Shown: piece after piece, positions 2,215 to 51,169 of the stretch
Layout of the letters: every line of letters starts with the position of its first letter
Position numbering within the stretch: position 1 is the first letter of the stretch
Assembly (NCBI GenBank): GCA_019059635.1
Contig: JAGVRJ010000013.1
Coordinates: 930,001 to 994,000, forward strand
DNA: 64,000 bases
Reading direction: 5' to 3'
Origin: Proales similis
Lineage: Eukaryota > Rotifera > Eurotatoria > Ploima > Proalidae
Position numbers and translations under genes: made by a program
The notes under the pieces: generated by a model
What the model was told of the DNA's origin: nothing
Database searches by the model: none
Seen by the model: the letters and a program-made list of their open reading frames with translations, nothing else

Positions 2215-4088
2215 GGTCTCTAAAGCGATTTAAATCGGATTAGTTTGATGCCATTTGTTCTCTTTTGTTTTCAAACAATCGCTCTCTCTCTCGCCCGCTC
2301 GCTCGCTCTCTTTCACGGCGCAAGCACCAAATATAAAAGTGCAGTTTCAATTTGATCTAGATTAAACAGCGAGCGTTTTAAATCGAAATGGCGCATTTCA
2401 AAAGAGACAACTCCAGCTCTGAAGAAGCATCGAGCTGCCGATTAGAACATTCGAAAATTGCTTTGCACATACCTTCAGCTGCTCGCTTCATTTGTTTTAT
2501 TGCTCACTCGTTCATGCACATACTGTTCTAAAACAGCTTTGCCAATTCTCCATAACATTTGCCTAATTATGAGGCCTTTCCTCTCCAGCTCCTTCTTTTT
2601 CTCAATTTTTTCTCGCTCTTAAAACTCACTGGTTAGCTCGCTCCCTCCTTCTCTCTCTCTCTCTCTCGGTTTCACTCTGGTTCGTGTTCACATTCAAATT
2701 CGTATTTGCATGAATTATTATTCGTGCCTGTGCGAAAGCGGCGAGAATGAAAGTTCGAATCGAGACGTGTGGATAAAATGTTAATTTTAGAAGTTGAAAG
2801 GAGAGTTGCAGCAGAGCAGCAACGGCGGCGATGATGATAAAGAAGAAGAAGACGATGATGGCGATGAAAAGTTGTTGTTCAACTTGATGCTGCTGGTCGC
2901 GCTGGTGATAAAAAGAACAAAATTCTTTTTTTTTCTCTCTAAATTTTTAAAATAGACGGCCTCACACGAGCAAAAATCGGCTAGGAATGGAGCGCCCGAT
3001 CACAGCAGATAGGCAGGCCAGTCGAGTCACTCAGCTCTGACAGTCAGCTGGCTAGATGAACAAGCAAATTAGACTACAACAAAAAAAAAATGCGCGCATA
3101 CGCAAATGACACGCTAAATATAAAATGCGTTTGTAATGAATGTAACGAAAAACTTGACTCGCGCGCGATCGTATATAAATAGCATTCAGCAGACAGATAG
3201 GCGGCTTAAAAATATGCGCTAGAGGGACTGGCCAAGTAGGCAAACGGGCAGGCACAGCGCCAGGCAGCAGGGATTGGCGCCATTCAGGCTGCTTATCGAA
3301 TAGAGAGCAGGATGAAGATGGACGGGCAAGCGCTTGTCATCTGCGCATCGCTTTAAAAATCAAAGCGACAAAGCAAAATAATTTTGTTCAATATCTAAAC
3401 GCAAAGTAAAACGTCTTGCGCGCCACGAACATGATGTGAGGGAAGGAAGAGAGCGAGCGAGCAATGAATCGAGCGAAAGTTTTGAATAGCAGCAAGCTAA
3501 TCACATTAATTTTGCAATGCAAGTATGGCGTTTTGTTCGCTCGTCATGTTCGCTGTTCAAGGTTGGTGCGAGAATGATTGCCAACACAGAAGAGAAATCG
3601 TGCGGCCTCTCTCTCTCTCGTTGACTCGTATCAGCGTCGCCGCCAATCGGCTCTCGACATCCACCCATCCCCTTTCAAATTTTGCGCAATGACCAGCGTG
3701 TGAACTCCAATCCGCGCACACTTGCTTCGCTCTCGTTGTTGAGTTCGTACTCTCCGTCAACTACTGCCCGATCTTTTGAGTAAAATGAATACTCCCGTTC
3801 GGATTTTCATTCATCCGTTCCGGTTCGATCTATTTCAACTCGTTTTTCATGTGGATGCAAGTTTTTGTTGTTTTTTTTTTTTCTAATTTTATTCAAATGG
3901 TTTGCAAAACAAGCTAGATAGAGATAGATTGAGAGAGAGACATTGATTGCTGTTCAATCTTTTTTTGCAAGTGGATTGTGCGATGGTCCAGTTGTGAGAA
4001 ACTACTGTTAATATTCAAAAAGCTAAGATTGGCCAAGATTGTCGGCCGCTTGGTTGTTTGGTTGGGAGATATGTTGACGCCAGCGTGT
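2215..4088. other. Intergenic: upstream of the PWWP gene and 3' of the myosin light chain gene
   Basis: No convincing coding exon on either strand. It holds short CT/GA tracts near 2280-2310 and 2650-2670, a purine-rich GATGATG/AAGAAG stretch near 2830-2880, and AT-rich runs. It is presumably the promoter and 5' leader of the PWWP gene and the 3' flank of the light chain gene, both on the minus strand. Confidence 0.5.
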
Positions 4089-6696
4089 TTATTCATCGTC
4101 CTGTTTGCCTCGCTTGATGATTCGAGTGAACGCTTGATAGTCGAGATTGCCCTTCGGATCGATCGGAGCGCCCTCAAGCACTTGGTTGAACTTGACGCAG
4201 AGAATAGAAATTTGTTTTAGCTCTTGATCGATTCGGGTGTTAGGACTCGTGCACACAAATCAGAGCACATGCGGTTAGGACAAATCGTCAATCGATCGCA
4301 ATCGGTCAAGGGCAGCGTTAGCTTGTTCTAGGCGCCTCCTTTCCATCGGTTAGTGATGTGGCTAAGAACGCGCGCCTTACTTCTTGCTCAGTCAATCGTT
4401 CGTCGGGTTTGCCCTCGTGAACAAGGATCTCGCGAAGACTTTTTTGGTGCAGATAAAAAGGTAAAGATAAAAAAGGACTATCAGGCAATAGCAACAGCAA
4501 TCGGCTCAGCAGTCGCATCCAAGCAGAGCAGAATAAGGTCAGAGTGAGGGCTCTATCTACTCAGTGAACGTGGCCCGGGGAGTGGAAGCAAGGCAGAGTG
4601 AAAGCTAACAGAACGAGGAAGTCTGGGACAGCGGAGAAAAGTCGGGAATGGTGCTATCGTAGAAACAAGGGACAGCCAACACGATTCGAATGCTACTAAT
4701 GTAACTGAGCAATGTTTGTAATCACTTACTTCCTGATCGGTCAATCGCTCGTCGGGTTTGCCGACACTGGTAAGCAATTCTCTAAAACTGAACGAGCCCT
4801 AGTCTTAAGCCAACTGGAGTCCAACGAGAGTCTATTGCCGAGCTACTCACTTATCGCGGTGGATCAGGCCCTTGCCCTCAGTGTCAAATAGTTTGAACGC
4901 GTTCATCAGAACGTTCTCTTCGTCAGTGCCTTTAAGAAAACCAGTTGAACTTGCAGTCATGAGACACTCAAAGTTCACGGGCATGAAAGCGTGCGAGACT
5001 AGACTAAAACGACTAGGCGAAGAAAATAGTGGCAAAAGAGCGGAAAAGGTTGAGGGGGGGGCCAACTGATGCTCAATGGAACAAGCTGATTGGATGCAAC
5101 AAATTGGAATCTCTGAGCCGAGTGCGAATCGAATCATCGAAATTCGCCACTCACTGTTTAGAGCTAATCAAGCCAGTCGCGTCTGAGTCGTACATTTTAA
5201 AAGCATTCAAAATGTGACTCTCTTCGTCCGTGCCTAAACAAATTGAAGGTTGTATAGAGAATCAAATCAAAAGCAACGCAGACTCAACAAAAAGACAGAG
5301 AGCAGTGCAATCTAGACAATTGATGGCGAAAATAGAAGCCATCGGGCGTATCGAGCATGCCGAGTCACGGCCGTAGACATTGATGTCTTCTGCAAACTAC
5401 TAACCGTTGAGTCGGTCGCCGAACAAAGTAAGGAGCATGGTGAAGTTGATCGGTCCGCTGGCCTCATCAATCATGGCCTTCAGCTCAGCCTCCTTGGGCA
5501 CACGTCCTAGACAAGTTAAACCGGTTAGACTACATTGACAAGAGGATAGCGAACGGATAGTTTCATGCTGCATGCAACTCGTGCTTGGTTTATTCTCTCG
5601 GCCGCTAGACCGGGGACGCATTCAACGATTTGGGAACAAGGGAGGGCCAAGTGCAGAAGGGAAGGAAAAAGGCGATTTTCAAGGCTGCCGGGTGTTGTGA
5701 ACAAGCTAAGGGAAAGGGAGAGGTGGTGGCTAAGGGTCGGGGCCGTTTTTACCCAGAGAGTTGAAGACCTCCTTAAGGTCGTCCATACTGACGACTCCGT
5801 CTCGGTCTTGGTCCATGAGACCGAAAGCCTATTTGTACAGTTAGAGAGTGTTTAGTAAAGCAAAACAAATAGCTTCGGACTCGGATCGATTGTGGGACAT
5901 GGGACAGAGTAGATGGCCCTATTCGATTAGTTTCACTCGGAACAGCACATCTCAAGCAGTGTTCGCTGAGTAAAAGCACACTGGCACACTAACCGAGAGA
6001 GGCGTTTATCTCTTTGAGGTCGTCAAGACCAATGACGCCGTCTCTATCTTGATCGATCATGGTGAAAGCCTAGCATGGCGAGTTTGGGTAGAATACGAGT
6101 CCAATTTTGGCCACGCGATGTTGCCGCCCCATGAACGGGCTGAAGAAAATAAACGCCCACTCACCTCTTTGAACTCTTGCACCTGAGACTGTTCGAACAT
6201 GGCAAAGACGTTGCTGGTCGCTCGCTGAGCCTTCTTCTTTCCCTTTTTCTGTTTCAAAGTCACTCGATTAGAATCAGAATGAGTAAAGAGAGGAGTCGAT
6301 ATTGAAAAAAAAAACATGATTTTTCGTTTGAAGGCTGCAAGGGTGATTGCGAACTGAATTAGAATTCAGGAACAGGCGACAAGTGGGCAGCAAATAGGAG
6401 AGATAGGAGGGGAGGTGAGGGTCATTGGCGAGCAACGAACATGACTCAACAGGCTCGAAACTTGATCAGCGTGATCAGATAAAGCTACTTACGTCCTATT
6501 GGCGAAGCAAATTTTTAAAAGCAATTTCGATTAAAGCATCAGAGAGAGAGATGAAGAGAAAAGAAAAATGAGAGCGTGACATGAAAGAGTATCTGAGTTG
6601 TGCAGAGCGCAGACTTGAAGCAGGAGTTAAGCCCAGTCAGACTTGGCGCAGAGGTGGAGATGGAAAATGAGACTGCTTTTTACTTACATCGGCCAT
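4089..6696 (-). CDS. Myosin regulatory light chain with three pairs of alternative exons
   Basis: EF-hand regulatory light chain of myosin II (MRLC, Sqh/MYL9/MYL12 family). Exons on the minus strand: 6688-6696 (MAD), 6165-6248 (contains [10 protein letters not shown], the MLCK/ROCK phosphorylation site), B1 5994-6069 or B2 5753-5828 (EF-hand 1), 5405-5506, D1 5155-5233 or D2 4851-4929, E1 4730-4781 or E2 4381-4438, and 4089-4190 ending in TAA. One choice per pair with E1 gives 504 nt (167 aa), the usual family length; E2 adds two codons. Both B copies keep an intact calcium loop ([12 protein letters not shown] or [12 protein letters not shown]). Pair members share phase and homologous sequence, so the pairs are read as mutually exclusive exons. 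All junctions follow GT-AG. Gene identity is very secure; exclusive use of the copies is inferred from lengths and phases. Confidence 0.93.
4381..4438 (-). other. Alternative exon E2 of the myosin light chain
   Basis: A 58-nt exon encoding [19 protein letters not shown]. It duplicates E1 (4730-4781, 52 nt, [17 protein letters not shown]). Both enter in phase 2 and end GAA|GTAAG in phase 0. E2 keeps two extra codons (LR) found in typical family members. Both lengths are 1 mod 3, so double inclusion shifts the frame. Confidence 0.88.
4851..4929 (-). other. Alternative exon D2 of the myosin light chain
   Basis: A 79-nt exon encoding [19 protein letters not shown] followed by KGLIHRD. It duplicates D1 (5155-5233, 79 nt, [19 protein letters not shown] then TGLISSK). 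Both enter in phase 1 and leave in phase 2. Including both would break the frame. Confidence 0.9.
5753..5828 (-). other. Alternative exon B2 of the myosin light chain
   Basis: A 76-nt exon encoding [17 protein letters not shown] and LKEVFNSLG. It duplicates exon B1 (5994-6069, also 76 nt, [17 protein letters not shown] and LKEINASLG). Both start in phase 0, end in phase 1 and are flanked by AG and GT. Including both would add 152 nt and shift the frame. Confidence 0.9.
6493..6495 (-). other. Possible 3-nt microexon (GAC) of the myosin light chain
   Basis: On the minus strand the sequence reads AATAG|GAC|GTAAGT, an acceptor and a strong donor separated by three bases. It lies between the MAD exon (donor at 6687) and the next exon (acceptor at 6249). 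Inclusion would insert one Asp. Only RNA reads could show that it is used. Confidence 0.3.
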
Positions 6697-14245: not shown

Positions 14246-15955
14246 CTAAAATATCGGTTTGGATCGATCGTTGGTTTCGGCCTTGCGCAGCGATCTGCCC
14301 TGTCGTATGTCGGAGAGAAGTGAAGCTCGATCGGGTTGCCCGGCGCTGTTTACTGCTGTCGTGTCTGCTGGTACCGGCGGTAATGGCGGTGGCGGCGGTG
14401 CAGGAGGACCAACTGATGCCGGTGGAGGTGGTGCTTGTCCGACTCTGGCTTCTTCTGACGGCTTTTTCGACTCGTCAATCGTAGCCAAGCTCACCACTGA
14501 ATTCTTTCGGTCAGTGCTGATACCATCTTCGAGTATTCGGCTCTTGCGTCGGCCTGATGATCGACTAGCGAGTGTGACTTTTCCGCCGATCGCTTCAAGC
14601 ATCTCGGAAGCTTTAACCGATAAGTTGGCCATCGCCGTTTGTTCGGCAAGGTCGATACGAACGTCTTGAAAGAACACGTGTTCGATGAGCTCCTCCAGAT
14701 CGGCAAGCACAAACTTGCGCTTGGATGGCTGCTCCGTCGTTTGAATGTAAGTGTTGAAGAAAATGGTTCTCACCAGCGCGATCAGCTCTTTGCCTTCGCC
14801 GGGGCCGAGCGTTTCGCTCAGCCGGTCTAAAATGCTCTGGTCCGGAATGAGTGCGTCTAGCTCACAGCCCATGCTCATTTCAAGCAGCAGTCGACCAAAC
14901 CGCAATGTCTCGTACGCCCGATTCAGTTCGTAGTCGTTTCGAATTTTCCTCAATACCGTTTGCCCCTCCTTTACTGGCTCACGAATTAGATAGTTCTTGT
15001 ATACTTGTTGTAAATTGGCGCCGTTAAATGCCGCAGACTGCTCTCTAGTATCATAGAGAATAAAGTCCAGGCCAGCAAGAAGGCAAATGCGTCGCTTGTA
15101 AGCGAGTATCACATTTCCCGAATGTAAATTGCTAACCGGAGGAAAACGCGACCGTTTAAGATAGACAAGGGCTCGTAGTATTTGTTTGCCGTAGCTTTTC
15201 ACTGTTTTCAGAGGCAGGCGTCGAAATGTGGCGCCTGTACGATTGCCGTACTTGGCACTGGCGCTCTCCTTTGCGTAGCTCTGGTACAGCATGTCCTTGA
15301 TTGAGCCGTCGCGGCTAAAGTCCTGGATGAATAGCGCACGCTTCTCGTCGATATGCAGCTCCGCTTGGATATACGGAAGAACATTCGGATGCTGAATTGA
15401 GGTTAGTACTTGGCCAAGTTCGTTCTCGGTCTGCTTTAAGCTCAAATTCAGCGCCTCGCCGATCGATGCGATCTTCTTAAACGAGGTCTTCTCTTCGCCA
15501 ATCAGGTCGACAAACGCCAGCCGGTAAATGTTAAAGCGCCGCTCTATTTCGCTCAGCTCTTGTTTGAGCAGGAACCAGCTGCGCTTGGTCTGAAGTCCGA
15601 GTCGCGGCAGCTGATCGATTTGCTTGAACACAAGTTCCGGGTGCGATCGAATGTAAAATTGCAGGTACAAATAGGCGCTTTCACTCGACCGCTTCTCGCG
15701 CTCGCTTTTCTCACGTTCGACTCGTTCGACCAGATTCTGCTCGCCTCTTAAAAGACTGAGCGACATTCGACTCACTCGCCTCCTCTCTTCGTATTCGTTG
15801 TCGAGCAGAAACTGCTCTTCGCTTTCATAGCCTTCTGTCGACCGGCAGCGCTTTCCACACACAAACTTCCAGCAGACACATATCACCACAATAGCAAACA
15901 CGATTGAAAAGGGAACGGCCACCAGCAGAATCAACTCGGTTGTCTCGAGTGCCAT
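14246..15955 (-). CDS. PXK/Slob-like membrane-anchored pseudokinase with C-terminal WH2 motif
   Basis: Intronless, 569 aa. Residues about 8-30 form one hydrophobic transmembrane segment (LILLVAVPFSIVFAIVVIC), followed by a basic Cys-rich stretch. Residues about 85-440 resemble the kinase-like domain of PXK (modulator of Na,K-ATPase) and Slob (Slowpoke-binding protein). The catalytic loop reads NLHSGNVIL with no catalytic Asp and the DFG position reads GLDF, so it is probably inactive. The tail is poly-Pro followed by a WH2-type actin-binding motif (ASLLSDIRQGRSLRKAE), the arrangement at the PXK C-terminus. PXK itself begins with a phosphoinositide-binding PX domain; here a transmembrane helix stands in that place. 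The likely role is a membrane scaffold linking actin and channel or pump regulation. Start ATG 15955. Confidence 0.82.
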   Translation of the reverse strand: MALETTELILLVAVPFSIVFAIVVICVCWKFVCGKRCRSTEGYESEEQFLLDNEYEERRRVSRMSLSLLRGEQNLVERVEREKSEREKRSSESAYLYLQFYIRSHPELVFKQIDQLPRLGLQTKRSWFLLKQELSEIERRFNIYRLAFVDLIGEEKTSFKKIASIGEALNLSLKQTENELGQVLTSIQHPNVLPYIQAELHIDEKRALFIQDFSRDGSIKDMLYQSYAKESASAKYGNRTGATFRRLPLKTVKSYGKQILRALVYLKRSRFPPVSNLHSGNVILAYKRRICLLAGLDFILYDTREQSAAFNGANLQQVYKNYLIREPVKEGQTVLRKIRNDYELNRAYETLRFGRLLLEMSMGCELDALIPDQSILDRLSETLGPGEGKELIALVRTIFFNTYIQTTEQPSKRKFVLADLEELIEHVFFQDVRIDLAEQTAMANLSVKASEMLEAIGGKVTLASRSSGRRKSRILEDGISTDRKNSVVSLATIDESKKPSEEARVGQAPPPPASVGPPAPPPPPLPPVPADTTAVNSAGQPDRASLLSDIRQGRSLRKAETNDRSKPIF

Positions 15956-29729: not shown

Positions 29730-31805
29730 ATGTTGAGCATGGAACAGACACGGCCCGGAGGCCTCTACATTGAAGAGGCGGGCGAGTTTGACTACGTCTA
29801 CAATCAAGCAAGCATCGACGAGCTAAATCTAAACCACTCGCGCGCCCAGCGCATCCGAGCGGCAATGTTCCCCGAGTCTCTGGGCGACTCGGCACAGTCA
29901 GACAGCGGCAAGTCAGCGCTTGAGCGTCTATTGCCGCCCACGCAGCGGCTAAAAAGCGCCCTGATGCAGTTGATCAACTATCAAGAGGACGCCGACATGA
30001 CCATCAAGGCCATTCCGGAGCTGCTCAGACTTCTCGCTGACGAAGAGCCGGAGGTGGTCATGCGCACACTAAAGCTAATCGAGCAGCTCTCTAAAAAGGA
30101 CTCGTCCCGATTCGCCCTATCGAGTTCATCTCAGCTGATCGAGACCCTTATCAGTCTGATCTTGGCCTCTAACGATCCGCATTTGCACAACTTCTGCGCC
30201 GGCATTCTAAACAATCTTTCCCACGGCAGCAATAAACAAGCGTTGCTTCTCATATTCAAGGCCGACGGAGTAGCAGCGTTGATCAAGCTGCTTAGCTCGC
30301 CAATGGAGAGCGTCTTGTTCTACGCCATGACCACCCTGCACAGTCTGCTCATGTACGAGCCGGCCGCCAAAGCCCAAGTGCATCACTACAACGGCACCAG
30401 AAAAATGGTCGAGCTGCTCGGTCGACACGGAAATGTGAAATTCCTTGCGTTTGTGGTCGACTCCCTGCACATACTGGCATTTAACAACAGCGAAGTGAAA
30501 CTTGTCATTCAAACAAGCGGAGGTCCATATCACCTGATTCGCATACTTCAAGCAACCGACTATCCAAAGCTCATCTGGACGTGTGTGCGCCTGATGAAGG
30601 TGCTGAGCGTGTGCAGCGAGAACAAACGCGTGCTGGTGCAGGGCGGCGCCATGCAAGTGCTCAGCTCTCTGCTCTTGAGAAAAGTGGCCGACCAGCGAAC
30701 CGCTTACAACTGCCTGCTCACACTGCGCAATCTGAGCGACTGTGCGATGCGAGAAGAGAACCTCGAGCCGCTAATCGAGCAGCTCATCGACTACATCGCC
30801 CACAGTCAGGACATGAACGTGAGCACTTGCGCGGCAGGCATCCTCTCAAACCTCACGTGCAACAACGATCGCAACAAGATCAAATTCGTCGAGCACAACG
30901 GCATCGAGGTCATGCTTCGCTGCATGCTCCAGGCAGAGCCGGACAATCGGGACGATATTTGCGAGCCGGCCGTCTGCACACTACGCCACGTGACCAACAG
31001 ACACGCAGAGGCGAGCGCAGCTCAGGAAGCGGTCAGGTTCTATTACGGCCTTCCAGTAATCGCGCCACTGCTTCAGTCAGAGCAGAGTAGATGGCCGCTG
31101 CTCAAGGCCACAATCGGTCTCATCCGCAATCTGGCTCTGAGCGACAACAACCTGGCGCCGTTAAGAGAGCTCGGCATCATTCCGCGCCTAGTTCAGCTCT
31201 TGATCAAGGCCATAAACGCTCACCAGCAGGCGCAGCAGAACGGAATGGAAGGCGCCCTGATCGACGACGTGGCCATGGAAGAGATTATAGAAAGTTCAGT
31301 TGGCGCCCTGCACCAGCTTGCTCGTGATCCACACAACGGAGCCGTTATCAGAGAGCTGAAGTGCATTCCAGTTCTTGTGCAGTTGTTGTTCATGCCGTGG
31401 GAGAGCATTCAGCGAGTGGCGTGCGGCTGCTTGTCCGAGTTGGCCAACGATCGAACCAACTCGGAGCTTATCGAGGCCGAGAAGGCCACAGACAGACTCA
31501 CAGAGCTGCTGAGATCCAAGGACCATTCGATATCAACATACGCGGCCGCTGTGCTCTACAGACTCTCTGACGACAAAAACGAGCCGTGGGAAGGCGGCAA
31601 AAACTACGCTGACGCCCAGTACGTCAGAGGCGCCGCCATCACAGGCACTCAAATAGGCTCCAATGACCAGTTTGTTACATACAACACAATAGACCCATAC
31701 GAGAGCGGAATGGCGCCCTCGTCGCATTACAATCAGCTCGTTGACTTGTCGAGCGCCCAGGCCAATCCGCAGTCGCCAGCCACCTGGTTCGACACGGACC
31801 TCTAG
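29730..31805 (+). CDS. Beta-catenin/Armadillo lacking the N-terminal phosphodegron
   Basis: Intronless, 691 aa. Twelve armadillo repeats cover residues about 75-600. Landmarks: RAQRIRAAMFPESL (alpha-catenin-binding region end), LINYQEDADMTIKAIPELLR, VCSENKRV and NDRNKIKF (Lys residues equivalent to human K312 and K435), CTLRHVTNRH, and IRNLALSDNN. The C-terminus ends ATWFDTDL, the conserved PDZ-binding end of beta-catenins. Alignment begins near human residue 120, so the GSK3/CK1 site region (DSGIHS-type) is missing and nothing like it lies upstream. The charged groove residues for cadherin and TCF are kept. It could be an adhesion-specialised paralogue or a constitutively stable form. An upstream coding exon feeding the acceptor at 29708 remains possible. 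Confidence 0.93.
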   Translation: MLSMEQTRPGGLYIEEAGEFDYVYNQASIDELNLNHSRAQRIRAAMFPESLGDSAQSDSGKSALERLLPPTQRLKSALMQLINYQEDADMTIKAIPELLRLLADEEPEVVMRTLKLIEQLSKKDSSRFALSSSSQLIETLISLILASNDPHLHNFCAGILNNLSHGSNKQALLLIFKADGVAALIKLLSSPMESVLFYAMTTLHSLLMYEPAAKAQVHHYNGTRKMVELLGRHGNVKFLAFVVDSLHILAFNNSEVKLVIQTSGGPYHLIRILQATDYPKLIWTCVRLMKVLSVCSENKRVLVQGGAMQVLSSLLLRKVADQRTAYNCLLTLRNLSDCAMREENLEPLIEQLIDYIAHSQDMNVSTCAAGILSNLTCNNDRNKIKFVEHNGIEVMLRCMLQAEPDNRDDICEPAVCTLRHVTNRHAEASAAQEAVRFYYGLPVIAPLLQSEQSRWPLLKATIGLIRNLALSDNNLAPLRELGIIPRLVQLLIKAINAHQQAQQNGMEGALIDDVAMEEIIESSVGALHQLARDPHNGAVIRELKCIPVLVQLLFMPWESIQRVACGCLSELANDRTNSELIEAEKATDRLTELLRSKDHSISTYAAAVLYRLSDDKNEPWEGGKNYADAQYVRGAAITGTQIGSNDQFVTYNTIDPYESGMAPSSHYNQLVDLSSAQANPQSPATWFDTDL

Positions 31806-36858: not shown

Positions 36859-38601
36859 TCATTGAGGCGAAACGGCAGACTTGGCCGACTTGGCCGAGCT
36901 TGCAGCTGCTGGCTTGCTGGGATTAGAAGTAGCAGCAGTTCGGTTTGCTGCCGTGCTTGCAGGTGTAGTATTAGTAGTATTAGATGCGTTTGAATGGGTG
37001 ACCACTGCGAGTTGAGCCGAGTTTAGAGAAGCGGCCATGAATGCCAGCAGCGACGGATTTGAGAGGATCGCAGCGGGCGAGAAAGCGGAAGCGCTCGCTG
37101 ACGCTCCGCTCAACAACGGCAAGTAATGTGGCGCTAGAAGATTGCTCGACAGAGCAGGCAAGGCAGAAAGTGAGAGCAGAGCTTGTAGCGGGTGTGCGCC
37201 TGCCGAGAAGGCAGAAAGACCGGCGTTAAGAAGACCATGACTCGATTGGGCCGGTTTCTGCTCTGTCTGATGCAGGGCCTTCGCGTCGCCGTTCAGCAAA
37301 TAATTTATATTGAACCTGTCCTGGCGACCGTTGATTAAAGCGTCTGTGCTTGGCTCGCGCTGCTCTTTGAGTCGCTTCTGTGCCAAGTTCTGGGCGAGTG
37401 TATCCACCGACAGTTTTCGTTTAGATGTTGCACAATTGTTGGCCGCCGCAGCTGCTGCCGACAACTGATGATTGCAATTGGCAGCGCCGTCAATGTTTAT
37501 GAGCGAGTTCGGAGGGGACGGATAGAGCTGTTCAATGGTCTTGAGATCGTTCAGACTGAACGAACCGGCGCCGTGCCCGACCAGTTGGCCGGCCGCCGTC
37601 AAATATTTGTACTTGTTCACACAGGTCTGGCAGCAGCAGTTGCCCTTGTGACGCTGACTCGCCTGTTTATTGCTTGCGCTTTCAAAGTCTGCGTTGCCAC
37701 TCAGCTTGCAGCTATCAGTATCCGAGTTCGCTTGACTTGTCTGATTGTTGTTCTCGTCAAGTTCGCACTTGAGGTTGTACGATTGACAAGGAGTCGTTTG
37801 GCCGTCCTCGCTGCTCTCGGCGTTCAACGAGTCCTCGCTGCTCAAACGGTTCGCATCGTTCGTGCTGCTGTCCAGCGCGCCGTACTCGTTGTCACTATCG
37901 TCATAGTATTTATTTGAACGCACAATTCGATTTATGGAGCTGACACTGGGCAGCTTGTCCTCACTGCAGATTCCGTCCGACTCGAGTCGCTTGCGGATCT
38001 CCCAGGCGAATATTTGCGGGTTAGCTCTCTTGTACTCTCTGATCTTCTTGACCACCTCGGGCGTGGCCACTTTTGGCTTTGAGCCGCCGATCAGGCCCGG
38101 AGACGTGGTTTGAAAGAGGCGATAGCGTTTGAGTATTTTGCTCACGCAGCCGTGCGACACTTGAAGTTTTCGACTTATCTCGCAGGGCCGCACGCCCTGA
38201 TTGGCCAGCTCGACTATTCGCTCGCGAGTCTCCGACGGCAATGGTCGTCCGTTTATGAACTCGCCGCCCAGCTGATTTAACGAGGCTGCGGTCTGACGCG
38301 CCTTGGCCATTGCACTGCTTGCCGATCGGCTTCGATTTGAAGAGTTGGAAGACAGAGTGCCGTTGAGGTTGGGCAGGTACTTGACGTCAACCGATAGGCC
38401 CGCTTCTAGTGGCGCTCTGCAATGCTCGCTGCTCTCCTCAATGTCACTTGAATGTTCCGGCTCGTTATTAGTCTCGTCATTCTCATCGTCCTCGTCGACA
38501 GATGCGCTCGCTTGACTTTGCATTGTTCGCCGTTGTCTTTCTTGTTCTTCGACAACTATCAGCCGCTGCACAGGCTTTCCATTCTCTTCACACTCATTCA
38601 T
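36859..38601 (-). CDS. Pax transcription factor: paired domain and octapeptide, no homeodomain
   Basis: One coding exon of 580 aa. The paired domain spans residues about 110-232 ([84 protein letters not shown]). The usual YYETGS linker is replaced by [10 protein letters not shown]. An octapeptide/eh1-like repression motif, FNINYLLN, lies near residue 430. There is no homeodomain. This fits the homeodomain-less Pax classes (Pax1/9, Pox neuro or the lophotrochozoan Pax-beta group); features of Pax2/5/8 and Pax6 are mixed, so I do not assign a class. The ATG at 38601 is directly preceded by CCACTTTAG, so a 5' exon or spliced leader joins at the start codon. Pax genes normally have introns in the paired box; none is present. 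Confidence 0.9.
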
Positions 38602-49771: not shown

Positions 49772-51169
49772 ATGCTGCTGGTCAATCGTAAGCTAAAACG
49801 GCTGCTAGTAGCTGTGCTGCTCGTCTCGCTCGCCGGTTTTGTATTCTTCAAGAACGAGCTCCAGGACGAGGCCAAGCCTGCCCAGTTTCACATCCTCAGG
49901 CCTCCAGTCTTTCAAGTCGAAAATTTCACTCAAATTATCGAGATCATTAGAAGGGAGAAAGCTGAGAGTCAGACATTGGTGAGCGCAGTCAACAGGAATG
50001 AGTTTAAAAACATCAAAGGCGGCGCTCGTCGATTAAATCCAGACAAAGCCAAGTATGTGATCTTGGCTCACACCAAGGTGTACGGACGCGGCAAATTTTG
50101 CGATCATGCTCAGGAGAAAATATTCAATTCGCTGATTGAGTCGTGTCCGCACCAGAATTGTGAATTCACTTGTGACATAAAGTCAAATCTCGAACGAGCC
50201 GACTTGGTAATGTTCCATCAGCGCGATTTGGAGGTCGAGCTCTACACAGTATTCGGGCGAGACTTTGACTCTTGGTTCAAAAAGACAAAGCAGATTCCAT
50301 TCAAGCGAGTGGACGAAAAGCTCAAGAACAACCCGAGTCAAGTTTGGATGCTTTGGAACGATGAGTCCAGCCAAGTGCCAGAAGGCTTCAATAAAATAAG
50401 CGAGCTGTTCAATTGGACGATGAGCTACAAGCCAGAGTCGGAGATCTACGAAGGCGCTTACGGCCTCATGTCGTACTCGACTCATCTCAGCGCGGTCGAC
50501 ATTCAAAAGGCCAAAGCCGACATGAAGCGAAATGAGTTTGATAGACGCCAGAACGCCATACTCTGGTTTGTCAGCAACTGCAATTCAAAGTTGAGGATGA
50601 ACATCGCCCTACAAGTCAGCAAGTATTATCCCGTGCACATGTTCGGCAAATGCAATCCGCTAGAGTCGATCGAGCCGAGCGAAAGACGCCTGTACAAACA
50701 CCTGAAAGTGAACGTGGACACTGACGGCCTGTGCGGCCGCTTCTCAGCGTGCGAGAAAGAAAACCTGAAGAACTACAAGTTTTACTTTGCGTTTGAGAAC
50801 CGCAACTGCAGCGACTATGTGACTGAGAAGCTGTGGCGCTCACTGGAGCAAAAGCTCATTCCGATCGTCCTCCAGCCGAACATTGCCTCTTATCGCCGCG
50901 CGTCCATTCCGTCCAACTCGTTCATTCATCTGGAGTCGTTTTCATTTGACGCAGGCCGCTTGGCCGCCTACCTGCGCCAGGTTGAGTCTGACTTTGATCT
51001 CTACTTTCAGCATCTAGTGTGGAGCACAGTCTACGCCAAACCCTACTACCAAGGCGGCATACTTGAGCCGCACCGCTTCTGTCACTTGTGCCACTTGCTC
51101 AACACTCAGCAAGACCGAGTAGAGTACACGCGAGTGGCAGATTTCTTCAATTCAAAGTGCATCGGCTGA
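49772..51169 (+). CDS. Alpha-1,3-fucosyltransferase (GT10)
   Basis: Intronless, 465 aa, type II Golgi membrane protein. A short basic cytosolic tail (MLLVNRKLKR) precedes a transmembrane helix at residues about 11-27. The GT10 signature is FYFAFENRNCSDYVTEKLWR (about residues 346-365), which forms the GDP-fucose site. Upstream landmarks are the acceptor-domain segment MLWNDESSQVP and GLMSYSTHLS. Sequons NFT, NWT and NCS are present. It transfers fucose from GDP-fucose to GlcNAc of N-glycans or related glycans; whether it modifies the core or the antennae cannot be told. A splice-acceptor-like GTCTGTAG ends at 49747, 24 nt before the ATG. It may act on glycans initiated by MGAT2 elsewhere in the window. 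Confidence 0.93.
   Translation: MLLVNRKLKRLLVAVLLVSLAGFVFFKNELQDEAKPAQFHILRPPVFQVENFTQIIEIIRREKAESQTLVSAVNRNEFKNIKGGARRLNPDKAKYVILAHTKVYGRGKFCDHAQEKIFNSLIESCPHQNCEFTCDIKSNLERADLVMFHQRDLEVELYTVFGRDFDSWFKKTKQIPFKRVDEKLKNNPSQVWMLWNDESSQVPEGFNKISELFNWTMSYKPESEIYEGAYGLMSYSTHLSAVDIQKAKADMKRNEFDRRQNAILWFVSNCNSKLRMNIALQVSKYYPVHMFGKCNPLESIEPSERRLYKHLKVNVDTDGLCGRFSACEKENLKNYKFYFAFENRNCSDYVTEKLWRSLEQKLIPIVLQPNIASYRRASIPSNSFIHLESFSFDAGRLAAYLRQVESDFDLYFQHLVWSTVYAKPYYQGGILEPHRFCHLCHLLNTQQDRVEYTRVADFFNSKCIG

Follow-up and report, generated by a model that had tools for sequence, protein, structure and literature searches.

The window, by which we mean the whole stretch of 64,000 nucleotides of Proales similis DNA that was analysed (G+C content 48.2%), contains on its minus strand, at positions 4089-6696, a gene for a myosin regulatory light chain (RLC) with a predicted product of 169 residues. 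Neighbouring open frames encode a WH2 motif (14246-15955, minus strand), armadillo repeats (29730-31805, plus strand), a paired-box domain (36859-38601, minus strand) and a fucosyltransferase domain (49772-51169, plus strand).

The RLC gene, with all of its features on the minus strand, opens with a coding part of only 9 nt in exon 1 (6688-6696; ATGGCCGAT), which starts with ATG, encodes Met-Ala-Asp, the N-terminus found in other rotifer RLCs, and is followed by GTAAGT. Exon A (6165-6248) is constant and carries the N-terminal extension and a phosphorylation-type site, QRATSNVF. Its limits are given by the AG/GT edges, the reading frame and the alignment to the solved smooth-muscle RLC. There follow two versions of the exon for EF-hand 1, B1 (5994-6069) and B2 (5753-5828), both with an open frame and AG/GT edges; in database proteins the B1 type occurs in P0022 and P0053, and the B2 type in most monogonont rows. 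The constant exon C (5405-5506, 102 nt, AG/GT edges) encodes EF-hand 2. Exons D1 (5155-5233) and D2 (4851-4929) are two versions of the linker, entry helix and loop of EF-hand 3, of which the D2 type is found in 30 of 39 monogonont rows. Exons E1 (4730-4787, with the acceptor CAG at 4788) and E2 (4381-4438, AG/GT edges) are two versions of the exit helix of EF-hand 3 and the linker to EF-hand 4. The constant exon F (4089-4190, 102 nt) provides EF-hand 4, the C-terminus and the stop codon, and beyond it AATAAA at 3888-3893 is a candidate polyadenylation signal.

In all three pairs the copies are adjacent, homologous, of equal phase and of equal length: 76/76 nt for B, 79/79 nt for D and 58/58 nt for E. 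The coordinates that an earlier note on this DNA gave for B and D hold without change, each copy being preceded by AG and followed by GT. Its single exons A, C and F also stand, although the 9-nt first coding exon was absent from its list. For pair E the position of E2 is confirmed, but E1 had been given as 4730-4781, or 52 nt, and needs to be extended to 58 nt. An AG in frame 6 nt inside the exon would produce the start at 4781; among the 37 monogonont-type rows (of 39) that reach this exon, none is without the residues in question. All 37 have the complete 19-residue E segment, and the 58-nt exon is therefore favoured, with the acceptor for a start at 4781 possibly acting as a minor in-frame site.

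It is worth adding that the intron separating exons 1 and A contains a candidate 3-nt microexon, GAC (6493-6495, minus strand; TAG/GAC/GTAAGT), which would add one Asp. The window contains two matches to the pattern YAGNNNGTAAGT, where 0.56 would be expected; the other match is the end of exon E1, and no claim is made for the microexon.

The best structural matches of the product are the smooth-muscle RLC 7mf3_D and MYL9 (E 7.4e-55, residues 4-168 of 169). The EF-hand_6 and EF-hand_7 family models score above cut-off in both of the isoforms scanned (222 and 111). Using the usual EF-hand numbering and the smooth-muscle RLC alignment, we take exon B to be EF-hand 1, C to be EF-hand 2, D and E together to be EF-hand 3 with the linker, and F to be EF-hand 4. 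The odd-numbered EF-hands (1 and 3) would then be exchangeable and the even-numbered ones (2 and 4) fixed. This matches the earlier placing of the variation in EF-hand 1, the linker and EF-hand 3, but not in EF-hand 4, which lies on the constant exon F. EF-hand 1 holds the divalent-cation site of RLCs. As an RLC, the protein would be expected to bind a myosin heavy chain and to be phosphorylated by a light-chain kinase, for which the site on exon A is present.

Every combination that takes one copy from each pair has an open frame (8/8), each encoding 169 residues, so that eight light chains from this one gene, as had been suggested, would be possible. The consequences of a wrong choice were followed for six kinds of error, namely a skipped or doubled B, D or E, each in eight contexts, and every one is out of frame. 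In five of the six kinds there is a stop upstream of exon F: a skipped B leads to a stop in C, a skipped D to a stop in E, and a doubled B, D or E to a stop inside the second copy. The exception is a skipped E, where the frame is shifted and F is read through into the 3' flank, with a stop at codon 209. The statement that the frame is lost with two copies or with none is thus correct for all three pairs, although as an argument it is slightly weaker for a skipped E, which has no premature stop.

In mammals, nonsense-mediated decay as a rule requires the stop to lie over 50 nt upstream of the last junction. Here the stops for double B, skipped B and double D fall 133-262 nt ahead of the last junction, while those for skipped D and double E fall only 10-14 nt ahead of it. 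Decay could remove the first three forms, but could hardly remove skipped D, double E or skipped E, and as the sole filter it was rejected. Since decay could reach only some of the mis-spliced forms, regulated choice must carry most of the work.

The two copies of each exon have diverged considerably, with 52 of 76 bases in common in B, 46 of 79 in D and 40 of 58 in E. The differences at codon positions 1, 2 and 3 number 9, 3 and 12 in B, 10, 7 and 16 in D, and 5, 3 and 10 in E. By the Nei-Gojobori method (NG86) over the three pairs together, uncorrected pS is 0.74 and pN is 0.257, and the bias to silent sites is present in all three pairs. The copies thus have the look of long-lived coding sequence under constraint, unlike relics. 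The earlier note had named stop codons or decayed splice sites in one copy as evidence against alternative use, and in this genome none is present in any of the six copies.

Further evidence comes from the proteins of other rotifers. The twelve closest have 82-86% identity to the Proales RLC, and more distant ones come from bdelloids, Brachionus, acanthocephalans and Seison; the labels 'monogonont' and 'bdelloid' are given here to rows according to their resemblance to named records of Brachionus, Adineta, Rotaria and Didymodactylos. A pairwise comparison was made of 39 monogonont-type proteins and two Proales isoforms, requiring at least 55 comparable constant residues. Among the 40 closest pairs, and setting aside the pair of Proales isoforms, at least four database pairs have 0 of 98 residues different in the constant segments. 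P0002 and P0008 differ at 14 of 27 residues in segment D and at 0 of 142 elsewhere; P0009 and P0011 differ at 6 of 19 in E and at 0 of 150 elsewhere; and P0009 and P0022 differ at 10 of 25 in B and at 0 of 144 elsewhere. In these three pairs the limits of the swap are the Proales exon edges. The fourth pair, P0011 and P0022, differs in both B and E with the constant segments identical. Three combinations are therefore recorded for one other species: B2-D2-E2 (P0009), B2-D2-E1 (P0011) and B1-D2-E2 (P0022). The five records in these pairs come from contigs of 917-1467 bases, and since their frame is uninterrupted at the places where Proales has introns, they are most simply regarded as spliced transcripts.

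Other close pairs are less clean. P0010/P0024, P0012/P0024, P0004/P0010, P0015/P0042 and P0007/P0018 have 1-3 constant differences, most of the change being in D, alone or together with E, and further pairs, such as P0013/P0019 and P0009/P0016, show ordinary divergence. Several records run on past an exon, these being P0155, P0157, P0160 and P0195 past exon C and P0049, P0063, P0064 and P0065 past exon E. They leave the family sequence exactly at the exon edge and end shortly after, and resemble read-through into the next intron, as retained introns, genomic fragments or early transcript ends would give.

The automated gene model P0053 of Brachionus plicatilis contains B1-type and then B2-type sequence in tandem, in the Proales order. 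Both P0053 and P0058, from B. calyciflorus, stop at exon D, an ending that would be expected of automated models stumbling over paired exons. If transcripts agree, these doubled or truncated Brachionus RLC models would be explained.

The versions differ in how often they are met. The D1 type is found in 9 of the 39 monogonont rows, and the B1 type in P0053 and in just one of the 37 rows in which segment B can be read. B1 is thus rare in the sampled records, and may be a minor form. The E classes depend on few residues and were set by motif; with this definition, 22 of the 37 rows that include segment E are of the E2 type (motif EG), and for the remaining 15 the E type is uncertain. Residues that differ consistently between the classes are 3, 4, 5, 21 and 23 in B, 20, 24 and 26 in D, and 4, 7, 8 and 17 in E (from 3, 5 and 3 species, respectively). 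Such natural pairs of isoforms point to positions that are consistently different between versions, in a protein with two EF-hands fixed and two exchangeable.

The relatives also give an indication of the age of the duplications, for which their proteins were compared. Copies of the same class are alike across species at 0.81 (B), 0.70 (D) and 0.68 (E), against 0.68, 0.56 and 0.61 for the two copies within a species, and the class labels score best among the 4, 16 and 4 possible labellings. The species in this comparison (3, 5 and 3) were chosen by the analyst, and for E the motif-set classes make it partly circular. For B (25 residues) and E (19 residues) it constitutes the evidence on age. 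For D, trees were built with 45 and 46 rows, including 31 of the 39 monogonont-type rows, 9 of 20 bdelloid rows, two acanthocephalan rows and two outgroup rows, plus Proales. Of the monogonont rows outside the trees (P0047, P0049, P0053, P0054, P0058, P0063, P0064 and P0065), two are the Brachionus gene models, one, P0054, is full length but divergent, and the others are partial or run on past an exon. A recent duplication of exon D within Proales was rejected, in that D1 and D2 as sisters on segment D gave p-AU 0.0067. It follows that exon D was duplicated before the sampled monogononts diverged. A single lineage of the eight D1 carriers on the constant segments was also rejected (p-AU 2.7e-5), and the D types therefore do not mark one old gene pair.

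On segment D, the D1 types form one clade with the bdelloid rows here called alpha (P0027, P0028, P0030, P0031 and P0041) and the two acanthocephalan rows (support 96/96), while Proales D2 groups with the bdelloid rows called beta (P0034, P0036, P0039 and P0044; 96/90). On the constant segments all nine bdelloid rows come together (93/99). The alignment of segment D is 27 columns long, and the tree run gave a long-branch warning; forcing the bdelloids together on this segment was not rejected (p-AU 0.174), and the partition of D types among bdelloids is best described as suggestive. The Seison rows P0057, P0059 and P0060, which were included in the FastTree run only, fall with the outgroup rows on D and not with D1. 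We tentatively propose, as one possible history, that the exon duplications took place before the split between bdelloids and monogononts, and that the monogononts kept both versions in one gene while the bdelloids duplicated the gene and retained one version in each. If this is true, the same choice of isoform has been made once via splicing and once via separate genes, and the bdelloid comparison becomes a test of whether exon and gene duplication can substitute for each other.

On the basis of these observations, we conclude that this is very probably a monogonont RLC gene in which one of two copies is spliced in at each of the positions B, D and E. The reading of the earlier note, that one RLC gene contains three mutually exclusive pairs, is thus the favoured one, each of the three swaps being found in protein records of other rotifers. 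It could be argued instead that one copy of each pair is a relic or is very rarely used, the gene in effect making a single RLC. The scarcity of the B1 type, noted above, is in keeping with this. On the other hand, no copy has acquired a stop or lost a splice site, the differences between copies are mostly at silent sites, nine of 39 rows are of the D1 type, and class-specific residues have been kept across species; we consider this alternative to be highly improbable. Just as little credence is due to the idea that the swapped proteins of other rotifers come from separate, near-identical genes or from chimeric assemblies and have no bearing on splicing. Bdelloids do offer a precedent, in having two RLC types that are apparently encoded by separate genes. 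However, their constant parts are different, and in the swapped pairs these are identical at 98 of 98 residues, with 6-14 differences confined to one segment whose limits are the Proales exon edges. The D1 carriers do not form a lineage of their own either, a result that rejects one old gene pair, though not a pair in each species under conversion.

A refinement of the favoured explanation, rather than a replacement for it, is that the choices at D and E are coupled, since together they make up EF-hand 3, and that fewer than eight forms are made. The intron between D2 and E1 is merely 63 nt long, and E2 is present in six of the seven B2-D1 rows that have an E segment. Against this, D2 is found with both E types, although the E classes are uncertain, and the three combinations recorded for one species include D2 with each of them. 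Coupling is a possibility that we regard as rather unlikely.

As to how mutually exclusive splicing is achieved, the introns between the paired copies are 165, 225 and 291 nt long and all of the common GT-AG type, which makes steric hindrance or a clash between U2 and U12 splice sites unlikely. Competing RNA pairing was considered for nine pairs of introns, with duplex energies compared to 60 shuffles each, and none is convincing after nine tests. The lowest ranks were 3/60 (the D2-E1 intron with E1-E2) and 6/60 (C-D1 with D1-D2), and the other seven were between 13/60 and 44/60. The choice of copy would more plausibly be regulated by splicing factors. In the proposed mechanism, each Proales transcript would take B1 or B2 for EF-hand 1, D1 or D2 for the entry helix and loop of EF-hand 3, and E1 or E2 for its exit helix and the linker, making in Proales the swaps seen in the protein records of other rotifers. 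Splicing regulators would pick the copy according to tissue or stage, and the isoforms would tune the divalent-cation site and the grip on the myosin lever arm for different muscles.

The rest of the genome (G000, 15 contigs, 32,716,893 bases) was searched for other myosin genes. The best match outside the locus is a second, conventional RLC gene (L009, C12:52795-53244, 54% identity), which has one coding intron, and within its 3.4-kb locus no second copy of any part was found. Weaker EF-hand matches are present elsewhere in the genome. Given the conventional gene on contig C12, the paired-exon gene does not replace separate RLC genes. The contrast originally drawn between paired exons here and separate genes in other animals is refined by this: one gene could provide eight forms, and a separate conventional RLC is also present. 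Over 9.9 kb of a myosin heavy chain gene on contig C7, probably muscle-type, the search gave a single pair of putative mutually exclusive exons (L028:3156-3267 and L028:3613-3724, about 168,655-169,223), which are alike at 28 of 37 residues (76%) and each of which ends at a GT donor. In a second myosin heavy chain gene, on C12, no convincing pair of alternative exons was found in 9.0 kb. In this animal it may therefore be the light chain, more than the heavy chain, that carries alternative myosin exons, unlike the arrangement in insects (PMC11944230); with one genome behind it, this is only a lead.

Mutually exclusive exons are well known in muscle myosin heavy chains (PMC3912159; PMC6537884). 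According to PMC11944230 and PMC3912159, the muscle Mhc genes of insects, crustaceans and lophotrochozoans contain clusters of such exons, those of Drosophila Mhc being five in number and giving 480 possible combinations. For RLC genes, no such exons appear in the titles or abstracts among the matches listed from the open-licence literature, and among the same matches there is likewise no gene with three such pairs, in agreement with the earlier note.

The Proales RLC gene resembles the Mhc genes in having tandem homologous exons of equal phase, of which one per transcript would be used, and which would diversify muscle myosin. It differs in that the protein is a light chain of 169 residues, with three pairs spread over EF-hands 1 and 3. 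With RLCs of the MYL9, MYL12 and sqh type it shares the family, the N-terminal phosphorylation-type site and the four EF-hand regions. The C12 gene of the same genome represents this conventional type and, unlike the paired-exon gene, has no duplicated exons; compared to vertebrate RLCs, segment E of the Proales protein has a 3-residue insertion. A further parallel is provided by the RLCs of bdelloids (Adineta, Rotaria, Didymodactylos and similar), which like the Proales gene have two versions of D, one D1-like and one D2-like. In bdelloids the constant segments are different as well, so that the two versions apparently belong to separate genes, while in Proales they lie in one. If transcripts agree, a small light-chain gene gives in this animal a combinatorial variety that is elsewhere known mainly from the heavy chain or from separate genes.
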